A stretch of DNA of 64,000 nt. Origin: Rickettsiales bacterium. Lineage in GTDB: Bacteria > Pseudomonadota > Alphaproteobacteria > Rickettsiales > UBA8987. The notes under the pieces are model-generated. The model had not been told where the DNA came from, made no database searches, and worked only from the letters and a program-made list of their open reading frames with translations. Made by a program: the position numbers and the translations under genes. Below, piece by piece: positions 21,113 to 43,849 of this stretch. Numbering within the stretch: position 1 is the stretch's first letter; each line of letters starts with the position of its first letter. The stretch is from NCBI GenBank assembly GCA_020630095.1, contig JAHDCD010000002.1:1-64000 (forward strand). The letters are read 5' to 3'.

Positions 21113-22078
21113 TTAGATATTGTCTAGGAACTCGCGTTTTTCCATACATTTCTTATCTACCTTTACATGTAGATAAAGGTGGATTTTCTTGCCTAACAGC
21201 CTTTCCATGTCACGGCGAGCTTGCTCATTAACCTTTTTAATACGGGTGGCATTATCGCCAATAACTATCTTTTTCAATGTTTCACGTGAAACATAAATAA
21301 CCTGCTTAATAATAATATTTTTATCACCCTCGTCCCACTGCTCCGCCTCTACCATTATTTCATACGGAAGCTCTCGATCCAGATTCATCATCAATTTCTC
21401 GCGTGTAATCTCACGCGCTAAATCTTTAGGGTTCATATCTGTCATTTGCTCTGGTGGAAATAAATAATTCGGGAAATCCGCTTTTTTAGCAATTCCTTTA
21501 AGCATAGAATCAACACCATCTCCTGTTGTTGCAGATATAAAAAATATTTCCACAGGCTCAGGCGTGGTTTTGTCATTCCCGCGAAGGCGGGAATCTCCCT
21601 TAGGTCGACCCCCGAGATCCCCGCTTTCGCGGGGATGACACATCTTTTGCACTTGCTCAGCTAACTTGAGTAACTCAGTCTTATCAGATAATTTATCAAC
21701 CTTATTGAGCACAATTATATAATCTGAATCACGCTCCTGCACTCTTCTTAGAATAAAGTCTAAGAACTCTTCTTTACCTTTTAGCAACTTAATTACATCA
21801 ACTAGAACTATAACTAAATCAATGTCCTTAACTGAGGCCCAAGCGTGCTTCATCATCTCTTGGTCTATAGTTTTCTGTGGCTTAAATATCCCCGGAGTAT
21901 CAACAAATACACACTGGGTATCACCTACCATTTTAACGCCCATAATACGCCTACGCGTAGTTTGCAATTTCGGTGTAGTTATAGCTATTTTTGCGCCCAC
22001 AATTTGGTTCAGCAAAGTAGACTTACCTGCATTAGAACTGCCCAAAATAGTGCATATTATTGACTTCTCATTACTCAT
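21113..22078 (-). CDS. era: GTPase Era with an in-frame repeat insert
   Basis: Era is an essential GTPase that binds 16S rRNA during 30S maturation. G1 is GSSNAGKS (residues 13-20), and DTPG, NKVD and the C-terminal KH domain (YVSRETLKKIVIGDNATRIKK) follow. Residues about 147-169 (CHPRESGD...RLRGND) come from a family 1 palindromic repeat placed between the NKVD motif and the SAT segment of the G domain, so a surface loop should be longer than normal. A parS-like site lies in the KH domain. I place the start at the ATG at 22078. Confidence 0.96.
   Translation of the reverse strand: MSNEKSIICTILGSSNAGKSTLLNQIVGAKIAITTPKLQTTRRRIMGVKMVGDTQCVFVDTPGIFKPQKTIDQEMMKHAWASVKDIDLVIVLVDVIKLLKGKEEFLDFILRRVQERDSDYIIVLNKVDKLSDKTELLKLAEQVQKMCHPRESGDLGGRPKGDSRLRGNDKTTPEPVEIFFISATTGDGVDSMLKGIAKKADFPNYLFPPEQMTDMNPKDLAREITREKLMMNLDRELPYEIMVEAEQWDEGDKNIIIKQVIYVSRETLKKIVIGDNATRIKKVNEQARRDMERLLGKKIHLYLHVKVDKKCMEKREFLDNI
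21278..21293. promoter_or_regulatory. parS-like site 2 (in era)
   Basis: A perfect 16-base palindrome, TGTTTCACGTGAAACA, identical to the canonical bacterial parS. It is read as VSRET in the KH domain. Confidence 0.85.
21571..21641. repeat. Palindromic repeat, family 1, inside era
   Basis: Two hairpins in tandem, GTCATTCCCGCG...CGGGAATCTC and GAGATCCCCGC...GCGGGGATGAC, with GTCAT/ATGAC inverted ends. It is in frame and encodes about 23 extra residues. Confidence 0.92.
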
Positions 22079-35905: not shown

Positions 35906-38124
35906 TGCCTAATATAAAGAACATATCATTTACTGAGGCTATATCTGAAAGGTATCTAGCCTATGCCCTTTCTACAATTACAGGGCGAAGCCTACCAGAT
36001 GTTCGCGATGGCTTAAAGCCAGTACACAGGCGCTTGCTTTACGCAATGTTACAACTGAAGCTAGACCCTAAGAACGGCTTCAAAAAATGTGCCAGAGTTG
36101 TAGGCGATGTTATTGGTAAATATCACCCGCATGGTGATGTTGCCGTTTACGATACTATGGTGCGTATGGCACAAAGCTTCTCACTAAGGTATCCTTTAGT
36201 TGATGGTCAAGGTAACTTCGGCTCGCAGGATGGCGATAACCCTGCCGCAATGCGTTATACTGAAGCACGCTTAACTGATATTGCTACACATTTATTAGCA
36301 GGTATTGAAGCTGAAACCGTTGATTTCAGGGAAACATACGACAACCAAGACGAAGAGCCAGTAATTCTTCCAGCAGGTATTCCTAATCTACTTGCCAATG
36401 GTTCAGAAGGGATTGCCGTTGGGATGGCAACTTCTATTCCACCGCATAATTTAGAAGAAATTATTGATGCTTGCTTAAAAGTTATAACTAAGAAAACTGT
36501 TAAAACTGAGGAGCTAGTAGAACTTCTACCTGCGCCAGACTTCCCAACGGGTGGCACAATAATTGCTACCCCGAAGGAACTATTAAACATTTATGAAACT
36601 GGTAAAGGCGGCTTTAAACTTCGTGCTAAATGGGAAGTTGAGGAACAAGCCCGCGGTGTATATCAAATAGTTATTACCGAAATTCCATATCAAGTTAATA
36701 AATCAAAATTACTTGAAAAGCTTGGCGAACTTTACCGCGCCAAGAAACTACCTTTACTGGCAGACTTCAACGATGAATCTGATGAAAATATCAGATTAAT
36801 ATTTGAACCTAAAAACCGCAATGTCCCTGCTGAAGCGCTTATGGAGAGTTTATTCAAACTTTCTGACCTTGAGATTCGCTTCTCAGTTAACATGAACGTA
36901 TTGGATAAACATGGCGCACCACGCGTTATGGGTTTACGTGAAATTCTAGACTCCTATTTAGAGCATAGAATGGAAGTTCTAACACGTAGAACTCAGTTCC
37001 GTTTAAATAAAGTTAACGCGCGCTTACATATTCTTGAAGGGTTAAAAATTGCCTATCTGAATATTGATGAAGTTATAAAAATCATCCGCGAAGAAGACGA
37101 AGCTAAACAAATAATGATGGAACGCTTTAACCTATCTGAAATTCAGGTAGAGGCGATTCTTAACATGCGCTTACGTAGCCTTCGTAAGCTTGAAGAATTC
37201 GAAATCAATAAAGAAATTGATGAACTTACTAAAGAAAAGAATGAACTTGAGGCTCTACTAGGCGATGAAAAAATTGCATGGAACAGCATTAAAGGTGAAC
37301 TTAAAGAATTAAAGAAAAAATATGGTAAAGGTACCGAACTAGGCGCTCGTCGCTCAACTATTGAGAAACCAAGCACCGCCGAAATTGTTTCTATTGAAGC
37401 ATTTGTTCAAAAAGAACCTATAACTGTAATGCTAACCAAACTTGGTTGGTTGCGCGCATTTAAAGGCCATAAAGAGTTTGAATCTGCCTCTGAATTTAAC
37501 CTAAAAGAAGGCGATGAACCAATAAAAACCATCCATATGCAAAATGTGGATAAGCTAATTCTCGCGGCCAATAATGGTAAATTCTATACTATCTCAGGCA
37601 CAGATATTCCAGTAACTACCCCTAAATCTGGCTTCGGTGAATCTATCCGCATTATGGTAGATATTGATACTGCGGCGGACATTTTCGACTGCTTCAAATA
37701 TAATGAAGATGCTAAATATCTACTAGCAGCAGATATCGGCAAAGGCTTTGTAGCAAGTGCCCCACAGCTTATTTCATCTACGCGTAAAGGTAAGCAAGTT
37801 ATGAACGTTGCCAAAGGTTCAAGCTTCAGCCATTTACTTCAAGTTTCTGGCGATATGTTAGCAATTATCGGTAATCACCGCAAATTACTTGTATTCCCAA
37901 CTGCTGAATTACCTGAAATGGCACGCGGTCAAGGCGTACGTTTACAACGCTATGTAGATGCTAAAATTTCAGATATAAAATTCTTCGAAAAGCAAGATGG
38001 TCTATCTTGGAGCTTAGGTTCAAAAACCCGTACTGAACCAGATGTAACTGAATGGCTAGGCAAACGCGGACACACCGGCCGTATGGTTCCCACCGGCTTC
38101 CCAAGAAATAATAAATTTAGTTAA
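35905..38124 (+). CDS. parC: DNA topoisomerase IV subunit A
   Basis: ParC is the cleavage subunit of topoisomerase IV, which decatenates daughter chromosomes. The active tyrosine is Y118 in [11 protein letters not shown], preceded by [12 protein letters not shown]. The C-terminal beta-pinwheel is present but short, as in alphaproteobacteria. The start is GTG. It is convergent with hemE with a four-base overlap. Its position about 1 kb from the origin fits the chromosome-segregation theme of the region. Confidence 0.95.
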
Positions 38125-39098
38125 GAATTTCTGATAATAGAAATCATCTTTTCAACATTCTCTACAGGAGTGTTAGGCAAAATACCGTGCCCTAAGTTAA
38201 AGATAAACTTTCCGCCAGCCAAGGCATCTAATATATTATTAACTTCCTGCTCTAAGCCCTGCCCTGATGCAAGCACCGTAGGATCCAAATTACCCTGTAT
38301 ACAGCCATTCTTTTGTAATTCCTTAGCTTGACTAAGCGGTAAGGTATAATCTACCGCTAAAACATCCGGATTAATCGCTTCCTGATACTGTGCATAATAA
38401 TAACCTGCCCCCTTAGGGAAACAAATTATTGGCACATCAACTTCAGCACGCACCTTGTTAACAATCTCTTTTGTTGGCGCAATTACCCAATCATTAAATT
38501 GCTTTTCATTTAAAATACCTGAATGAGAATCAAATATCTTTAACACATTAGCACCGGCCCTAGCCTGCTTCACTAAATGCTCAGATATCTCATCTATCAT
38601 AGTTGGTAATATCTTATCATATTCACCATTATTTGCCCTCTGCCTAGCATCTGCAAATTCCTTCCTAGATGATCCACCTTCTAACATATAAGCAGATACT
38701 GTCCACGGTGCGCCTGAGAATCCAATTAAAGCTGTCTCTGCTGGCAATTTCTCCCTTGTGATGCGTAACGCATCATAAACCTTATCAATGCGGCTAGAAT
38801 CAGCTGTATTCTCATTCTTAGATATATGAATACCATTATCAAAAATAATCTCATAACCCAACTTTTCAGGAATTGTAAGAATATCAGAAAATATAATAGC
38901 AGCATCAAAACCAAACCTATCTATCGGTTGTAAAGTAACTTCACATGCTGCATCAGGATTATAACAAAACTCCAAGAAATCAGGGAATCCTGAACGAACC
39001 TTCCTATACTCCGCCAAATACCTACCTGCTTGTCTCATTAGCCAAATAGGAGGAACTTTGCCTATATTCTTACCATGTATTGTATCTAGAAATTTCAT
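38121..39098 (-). CDS. hemE: Uroporphyrinogen decarboxylase
   Basis: HemE turns uroporphyrinogen III into coproporphyrinogen III in heme synthesis. The diagnostic [17 protein letters not shown] lies near residue 19, with [17 protein letters not shown] and [15 protein letters not shown] following. Length (325) is slightly short but complete. It flanks the probable oriC, as hemE does in Caulobacter and Rickettsia, and is transcribed away from it. Confidence 0.97.
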
Positions 39099-39396
39099 TT
39101 TAATATAACCCTTAATTCACAAACAATATTATATAATAAATATTATATATATATAATTATAGATGTTATTGATTCGTGGATATGTTAATTATTTTTTATC
39201 CACACAGTTTTCCACATTAACTTTTATATTAACTTTGAATGGTAATTCATTAAATTACATAGAAAATTACCTCACCTTCAAAACTTAAACTAACTTAATG
39301 TGAATATTTAAATCTTTTATTCTATACATGTTAATATTCACGTTATAGATTCTTCACAAAAGATAATAACAATATTATCCACACAGTTTTCCACAT
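39099..39396. other. Probable chromosomal replication origin (oriC)
   Basis: The 298-base spacer between hemE and the DUF299 kinase gene has no gene. It holds two perfect DnaA boxes TTATCCACA (39196-39204 and 39375-39383). Each is followed at the same distance by a one-mismatch box TTTTCCACA (39208-39216 and 39387-39395), so a 23-base unit is directly repeated 179 bases apart. An almost pure A/T stretch (39121-39165) is a good unwinding element. Several TTAA pairs resemble CtrA half-sites, but spacing is not the consensus seven. Gene context matches the known alphaproteobacterial origin. Confidence 0.85.
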
Positions 39397-40227
39397 TTGT
39401 CAGATCAAAATAAATATCATCTTCATTTAGTTTCCGATTCTACGGGTGAAACTTTATCATCTATTTCACGCTCTGTTTTAGCGCAGTTTGATGTTATGGA
39501 TATTGACGAGCATATCTGGTCTTTAGTTAGAACTGAAGGACAAATGGATAGAGTAATCGAGAATATTGAACAGAACCCAGGGTTAGTAATTTATACTGTT
39601 GTTGATGGTGTACTAAAAGAAAAGCTAGAAAGGAAATGCCAAGAGCTTGATCTTCCCATTGTTCCTGTTTTATCAAAAGTTATCCGCGAAATGAGCCGTT
39701 ACTTTGGCGTTAAGCCTAACAAGCTTGTTGGCCGTCAGTATGACCTAGACGAAGAATATTTTGAACGCATAGATGCAATTAATTATACTTTAATGCATGA
39801 TGACGGACAAATGCCTGAAGATTTAGACAAGGCAGATATTGTTCTAGTTGGCGTATCCAGAACATCTAAAACGCCTACTTCGGTTTATCTTTCATATCGT
39901 GGTTTAAAAGTTGCTAACGTTCCATTCGTTAAAGATGTCCACTTGGCTGAACAATTATTTAATTTACCGGAAAGAGTATTTGTTATCGGTCTAGTAATTT
40001 CTCCAGAACGTTTATTACAAATTCGTAGAAGCCGTTTAGATGGCCTAAATGAGGATAGAGAAACTACATATACAAACCCCGAATACGTAAAAGAAGAAAT
40101 TAAGGAAGCGCGCCTTCTGTTCAATAAACAGAACTGGCAAGTTATTGATGTAACAAGGAAATCAGTAGAAGAGGCTTCAGCCCAGATTTTAAATCTATAT
40201 AGTAAATTTAAGAACGAGAGTAAGTAA
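39397..40227 (+). CDS. Pyruvate, phosphate dikinase regulatory protein-type kinase (DUF299)
   Basis: Members of this family are bifunctional kinase/pyrophosphorylases that switch PEP synthase or PPDK on and off. The YHLHLVSDSTGETL start, the P-loop-like GVSRTSKTPTSVYLS (about 152-166) and the DLDEEYFERIDAINY block identify it. The protein is the 'RP001' homologue that marks the origin in Rickettsia. It starts with TTG at 39397, directly against the last DnaA box, with no room for a Shine-Dalgarno. It shares one base with aroE. No ppdK or ppsA is in the window. Confidence 0.93.
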   Translation: MSDQNKYHLHLVSDSTGETLSSISRSVLAQFDVMDIDEHIWSLVRTEGQMDRVIENIEQNPGLVIYTVVDGVLKEKLERKCQELDLPIVPVLSKVIREMSRYFGVKPNKLVGRQYDLDEEYFERIDAINYTLMHDDGQMPEDLDKADIVLVGVSRTSKTPTSVYLSYRGLKVANVPFVKDVHLAEQLFNLPERVFVIGLVISPERLLQIRRSRLDGLNEDRETTYTNPEYVKEEIKEARLLFNKQNWQVIDVTRKSVEEASAQILNLYSKFKNESK

Positions 40228-42505: not shown

Positions 42506-43849
42506 CTAACTAAAGACACGTTTGAAGATAGTATCAATATTTTTTGTATGATATTCTAAATCAAATATTCCATCTAGCTCATCTTCAGAAAGTTTTTCAG
42601 TAACATCTGAATCTTGCTTTAATAAAGTTAAGAATAAAACTTCACCAGAATCGTTCACAACATTTACACCTTTTTGAGCTTCATCCCAAACCTTCATAGC
42701 GTTGCGCTGTACAAGAGAATAAGATGTTTCACGTGAAACACCTGCCTGTGTTAACGCAAGTAGAACACGTTGTGAGAATATTAAACCACCTAAAGAGTTC
42801 ATATTCTTCAGCATGTTATCAGGATAGACTTGCAAACCATCAACTAAACCAATCAGCCTGTGAATGGCAAAGTCTAAAGTAACATTTGCATCTGGTCCTA
42901 TATAACGTTCAACTGATGAATGTGAAATATCACGCTCATGCCATAACGCTACATTCTCCATAGCTGGCACAGTTGCCGCACGTACAATACGTGCTAAACC
43001 TGTTAAGTTCTCAGAAAGTACAGGGTTACGCTTATGAGGCATAGCCGAAGAACCTTTCTGCCCTTTGGAGAAGAATTCTTCAGCTTCAAGCACTTCCGTA
43101 CGTTGTAAATGACGAACCTCAACCGCTATATTTTCAATAGAAGAAGCAATAATACCAAGCGTAGCAAAGTAATTTGCATGTCTATCACGTGGAATAACCT
43201 GCGTTGAAATTGGCTCAGGTGTTAAACCTAGTTGCTCAGCTACATATTCCTCAACATCAGGGTTAATATTTGCAAAAGTTCCAACCGCGCCAGATATAGC
43301 ACAAGTAGCAATATCATCACGAGCCGCCGCTAGACGCTTACGATTACGTTCAAATTCGGCATAAAAACGTGCAAACTTTAGGCCCATAGTTACCGGCTCC
43401 GCATGTATACCATGCGAACGGCCAATACAAACCATATCTTTAGTTTCCTCAGCACGTTTCTTTAATGAAACTAATAATTTATCCAGACCTTCTAATAATA
43501 AATCAGCCGATTGTTTCAGCTGAACTGAAAGCGTAGTATCCAAAACATCAGAAGATGTCATTCCTTGATGCACAAAGCGTGAGTCTTCACCAATAAATTC
43601 AGCTAAATGCGTTAAGAAAGCAATTACATCATGCTTAGTAGTACGCTCAATTTCGTTAATCTTATCAATATCAAATTTAACACCTGCGCCCTGAACATTA
43701 TCCCAGATAGCTTGCGCAGATTCTTTAGGAATAACTCCTAGGTCTGCCATTTTTGTACATGCGTGCGCTTCGATTAAGTACCAAATATTGTACTTATTTT
43801 CATCCGACCAAATTTGCGCCATTTCTTCTCTTTTATATCTAGGAATCAT
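42506..43849 (-). CDS. purB: Adenylosuccinate lyase
   Basis: PurB catalyses two fumarate-releasing steps of purine synthesis. The superfamily signature [11 protein letters not shown] lies near residue 262, preceded by [16 protein letters not shown] and [10 protein letters not shown]. Length (447) is typical. A perfect parS-like site is read as VSRET in the C-terminal third. It is divergent from tgt, with 27 bases between start codons. Confidence 0.97.
42725..42740. promoter_or_regulatory. parS-like site 6 (in purB)
   Basis: A perfect palindrome, TGTTTCACGTGAAACA, read as GVSRETS on the minus strand. It is the first site to the right of the origin, 3.3 kb away. Confidence 0.85.

Follow-up and report, generated by a model that had tools for sequence, protein, structure and literature searches.

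A probable chromosomal replication origin between hemE and ppsR, marked by a step in strand asymmetry, in a Rickettsiales bacterium

The intergenic region between hemE and a ppsR-type gene on contig C2 of this Rickettsiales genome is very probably its chromosomal replication origin (oriC), as a reading of the sequence alone had proposed. Five lines of evidence that do not derive from the DnaA boxes of the gap itself agree on this assignment: a cluster of parS-like sites, a change point in GC3 skew (GC skew at third codon positions), the corresponding boundary in a relative (G005), the conservation of the locus across the order, and a dif candidate roughly opposite the gap. There is also a published precedent (PMC1914354). 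The gap belongs to a well-known kind of origin and is positioned as it is in relatives, and an origin is now placed for the genome of a poorly studied lineage. Coordinates without a contig name refer to the window, i.e., the entire 64,000-nucleotide stretch of contig C2 presented here.

RESULTS AND DISCUSSION

The gap and its flanking genes

The candidate origin (39099..39396, no strand assigned) is the 298-bp intergenic region between two divergent genes, hemE and a COG1806 (PF03618) gene, a feature of its class. Its A+T content is 79%, as opposed to about 62% for contig C2 and similar values for the other contigs. On its left, hemE, which encodes uroporphyrinogen decarboxylase (PF01208, 5e-92), occupies 38121..39098 on the minus strand; on its right, a ppsR-type Kinase-PPPase gene (DUF299, COG1806; PF03618, 2.8e-91) occupies 39397..40227 on the plus strand. 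With hemE ending at 39098 and the TTG start of ppsR at 39397, the gene-free length of 298 bases reported earlier is exact. The location of dnaA, which lies far from the gap on contig C9, counts against the assignment, but dnaA is likewise situated away from oriC in related groups.

A probable DNA unwinding element is present as a run of A and T only, spanning 37 bp (39125..39161, no strand assigned); this is the longest such run, and the 45 bases previously claimed for it were an overestimate. No CtrA consensus (TTAAN7TTAA) was recovered in a scan of the gap, and the gap contains no IHF site by strict consensus. CtrA sites are relatively scarce in several obligate intracellular relatives (PMC1914354); such sites are not required of every hemE-COG1806 oriC, and an IHF site, of which a degenerate form may be present, is accessory and is taken here as not defining alone. 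Motifs of the GANTC type (CcrM-type methylation) occur inside the gap at 39171 and 39348.

Paired DnaA boxes within repeated units

Two direct copies of an exact 23-bp unit, TTATCCACAcagTTTTCCACAtt, occur in the gap on the plus strand (39196..39218 and 39375..39397). Within each unit, a perfect DnaA box (TTATCCACA) is followed 12 bp on, on the same strand, by a box with one mismatch (TTTTCCACA), such that the boxes begin at 39196 and 39208 in the first unit and at 39375 and 39387 in the second. This is the arrangement that had been described from the sequence alone, and the two copies are identical. Written as TTATCCACACAGTTTTCCACATT, the two exact copies, each with its pair of boxes, lie 179 bp apart. 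Across the whole 1,598,447-bp genome, exact matches to the 21-bp core of the unit are confined to these two sites, and the next best match, on contig C13, contains 2 mismatches. Three weaker boxes, each with one mismatch, may be present by chance: TAATTCACA (39113..39121, plus strand), ATATTCACA (39299..39307, minus strand), and TTCTTCACA (39350..39358, plus strand).

When DnaA boxes were scored in 300-bp windows (3 for each perfect TTATCCACA box and 1 for each with one mismatch), the gap was the top cluster genome-wide, with a score of 8 against 4 for the runner-up; by this score, the genome has no better cluster elsewhere, which had been raised earlier as an outcome that would speak against an origin here. 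Lone TTATNCACA boxes are not significantly enriched in the window (6 observed versus 3.2 expected, with 12 of 100 shuffles reaching 6), and what stands out in the window is the clustering and pairing of boxes rather than single boxes. Pairs of the TTATACACA type with 12-bp spacing also occur at C8:201, C8:10810, C10:54992, and C10:59630, in stretches that look like inserted islands. These pairs were considered as rival clusters and rejected, as they adjoin integrase-like genes and lie within low-skew stretches.

The last base of the second 23-bp unit is also the first base of ppsR, the initial T of its TTG start, which confirms that the last box pair touches the start of the kinase gene. Of the 21 genomes with this layout, 17 have a plus-strand DnaA box no more than 45 bp from the ppsR start (about 1 expected from shuffles), and the terminal pair is therefore a conserved trait of this type of origin. 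The pair could also couple ppsR expression to DnaA, for instance through the block by DnaA that was suggested earlier; the box may regulate ppsR or may just serve the initiation complex, both of which are compatible with the sequence.

A location between divergent genes and the conservation of a box where ppsR starts would be expected as well if the gap were a mere promoter region for hemE and ppsR, with its boxes regulating transcription and the origin situated elsewhere, and the gap may well hold promoters. However, the change point in skew, the parS cluster, and the step seen throughout the order all coincide with the gap, and the genome has no comparable box cluster elsewhere. We regard a purely promoter role as very improbable and retain the gap as the probable oriC.

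parS sites, a dif candidate, and a possible course of initiation

Contig C2 has ten parS-like sites (TGTTTCACGTGAAACA, allowing up to 2 mismatches) in the interval from 13.9 to 52.9 kb. They flank the gap in two groups of five, all within 26 kb of it, and 9 of the 10 have at most one mismatch. Those on the hemE side comprise a perfect site (21278..21293, no strand assigned) and four with one mismatch each (13926, 27350, 29779, and 33763); those on the ppsR side comprise a perfect site (42725..42740, no strand assigned), three with one mismatch each (49013, 51950, and 52858), and one with two mismatches (47314). Outside this cluster, the readable genome, in which C13:1-72000 (72 kb) is masked as N, contains no parS site with one or fewer mismatches and only two parS-like sites, both with two mismatches.

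Scored against a proteobacterial consensus, a dif candidate (ACATTGTATAATATATATTATGTTAAAT at C13:163059) matches at 24 of 28 positions, with the next best site in the genome scoring 21. By the inferred contig order, this candidate lies about 710 kb from the gap, some 44% of the way round the circle and thus roughly opposite.

From the features established here (the position of the gap, its repeats, the box and parS clusters, the boundary in strand asymmetry, and the conservation of the locus), we infer a binding mode for DnaA, a melting site, and an order of steps. DnaA would bind both of the 12-bp-phased box pairs, along with the weaker boxes, and the resulting oligomer would grow toward the A/T-only stretch at 39125-39161. 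Melting of that stretch by the oligomer would then allow the helicase to be loaded there, after which ParB-parS complexes on both flanks would segregate the origin.

A step in GC3 skew at the gap

Raw GC skew was too noisy, and without sign change, and was therefore replaced by GC3 skew, calculated per open frame or gene. A blind one-break fit of GC3 skew, made on 756 genes along a 904-kb chain of ordered contigs, places the break exactly between hemE and ppsR, with a rough 95% interval of 39.4 to 43.8 kb, and none of 200 permutations gave as good a fit. The arms of this chain, which is independent of contigs C9 and C3, have values of -0.393 and -0.101, and are thus of one sign. In the GC-skew check suggested by the sequence-only reading, there is a positive step at 39.1 to 39.4 kb, but the negative sign is kept across the gap and no sign change occurs there in this genome. 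Because the chromosome seems to carry an extra, one-signed strand bias, that check is not simply readable here, and under the usual GC-skew test the origin would nearly have escaped notice on account of this unusual skew.

Contigs were ordered from the 8-bp target duplications of the insertion sequence found at contig ends (six joins, of which five are exact and the other matches at 7 of 8 positions) and from contig ends that split the 16S and 23S rRNA genes; there were no exact end overlaps between contigs. The placement and orientation of C9 and C3 come from shared end repeats and from the sign of the skew itself, and are less certain. A single insertion sequence (end GGGGCTGACACC) breaks contigs at the ends of C1, C2, C4, C5, C7, C8, C10, and C13.

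Relatives display the same boundary. In G005, from another genus of the same family, the blind break on a 373-kb contig again falls between ppsR and hemE, and the sign of the skew switches there from -0.12 to +0.16. The divergent hemE-gap-ppsR layout is common across the order, and a positive skew step was present in all 14 of the order genomes with this layout that were sampled for about 10 kb on each side (less at contig ends), with z above 2 in 13 of them. Where hemE was not found beside ppsR and both sides were measurable, a clear step occurred in 1 of 5 order genomes. Among alphaproteobacteria with the layout, 38 of 48 have a positive step. Upstream of ppsR, 35 loci together contain 164 boxes that are perfect or have a single mismatch, as opposed to about 30 in shuffles, and the most common spacing between boxes on the same strand is 12 bp (12 occurrences versus 0.04 expected). 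Origins of the hemE-gap-COG1806 form, in which box pairs are phased at 12 bp and the start of ppsR retains a box, are thus found repeatedly in the order.

Two arms with skew of one sign

At a normal origin, the two arms have skews of opposite sign. In this genome, two near-equal parts have GC3 skew of the same sign, one strong and one weak. The hemE-side arm comprises C2 left of 39.1 kb, C1, C8, C9, C10, and C13, and the ppsR-side arm comprises the part of C2 beyond 39.4 kb together with C3, C4, C5, C7, C11, and C12. In the frame of the window, their means are -0.408 (95% interval, -0.428 to -0.389) and -0.114 (95% interval, -0.132 to -0.095), respectively, with C9 and C3 included. Both arms are flat, the slope of GC3 skew being significant in neither. 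Round the ordered contigs there is a single sign at two levels, with the step at oriC, although the orientation of C9 and C3 is less secure; starting at the origin, the skew stays strong over some 710 kb until the dif candidate is reached, and beyond it the skew is mixed to weak. The raw skew of the whole chromosome, in the inferred contig order, is +0.071.

The size of the step, about 0.29, is close to the value of about 0.28 in G005, and the pattern looks as if a constant bias were added to that of a normal origin. Given a step without a change of sign, it seems that a strand bias of one sign has been laid over the normal origin step in this chromosome. This asymmetry is a real feature, for which ordinary two-way copying does not account. 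A weak arm composed of a mosaic of small flipped pieces was rejected, as its gene values are unimodal; a gradient produced by a delayed right fork and one-way replication with a time-dependent bias were both rejected because the arms are flat.

One possible source of the asymmetry is a recent large inversion, or a relocation of the origin, that cost the ppsR-side arm its sign, with the arm now drifting back; such an event would also leave a boundary at the origin and a weak far arm. But the order hemE-gap-ppsR-aroE is seen in many relatives, so an inversion would need to begin beyond aroE, and both ppsR (0.00) and aroE (-0.22) are already without positive skew. Moreover, classes of sites that change at differing speeds agree in sign and have similar ratios of weak to strong arm (0.24 at fourfold sites, 0.25 in intergenic regions, 0.30 at position 1, and 0.41 at position 2), and the weak-arm gene values show no mosaic. 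With ppsR and aroE in place but lacking positive skew, and with the ratios similar among site classes, a recent inversion beside oriC is disfavored, and we consider a history of this kind unlikely.

Somewhat less likely again is that two-way rounds of replication are mixed with many rounds that leave oriC leftward only and proceed round the whole circle. If forks leave equal bias, about 60% of one-way rounds would give both arm values, and such a mixture would also yield the constant sign, the two flat levels, the sharp boundary at oriC, and the lack of a gradient that are seen in the ordered contigs. One strand would then be persistently biased, and Chargaff's second rule would fail chromosome-wide, an outcome that we hold to be doubtful. 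Two-way replication would favor highly expressed genes that point away from oriC, and most of those checked on the ppsR side, namely rpsL, tuf, rplK, and infB, as well as rpoC past dif, are oriented in this manner; atpA is an exception. Also at odds with such a mixture are the normal pattern of G005, the location of the dif candidate, which is roughly opposite the origin, unlike that of unidirectional chromids (PMC7858055), and the lack of a main-chromosome precedent in the literature compared.

If confirmed by a closed genome and read depth, a one-signed bias of this kind would make chromosomes with asymmetric skew directly testable, the alternatives then being unequal use of forks or a strand bias that arises without replication direction.

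Comparison with known origins and asymmetric chromosomes

The hemE-COG1806 locus is the origin of Caulobacter and the predicted origin of Rickettsia (PMC1914354), in keeping with the earlier statement that hemE and an RP001-type gene flank oriC in these genera. The origins of Caulobacter crescentus (CC_3763/CC_0001) and Rickettsia prowazekii (RP_885/RP_001) have the same flanking genes as the gap described here and are likewise intergenic, high in A+T, and provided with a cluster of DnaA boxes, with lengths (383 to 404 bp) similar to its 298 bp (PMC1914354). Unlike that type, the present origin is without consensus CtrA and IHF sites, and it carries a 23-bp double-box unit in two exact copies, one of which, the second, abuts the ppsR start. 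The origins of Wolbachia, Ehrlichia, and Anaplasma, in which hemE is next to COG1253, have in common with it the hemE flank, the A+T richness, and the DnaA boxes, but COG1806 is no longer beside hemE in those genera, whereas the hemE-COG1806 pair is intact here (PMC1914354).

SkewDB records about 250 chromosomes whose two arms differ strongly in skew and gives no explanation for them (PMC8941118). As in those chromosomes, the skew of one arm is several times stronger than that of the other. In the present case, both arms agree in sign along one strand, as may be so for some of the SkewDB chromosomes, and their boundary is pinned to oriC gene by gene. The unidirectional chromids of Pseudoalteromonas likewise have GC skew without the sign switch of a normal origin, but they are plasmid derived and RepA driven, with dif beside the origin (PMC7858055). 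By comparison, the replicon described here is a main chromosome, its oriC is of the DnaA-box kind, its skew has a clear step, and its dif candidate is distant from the origin.
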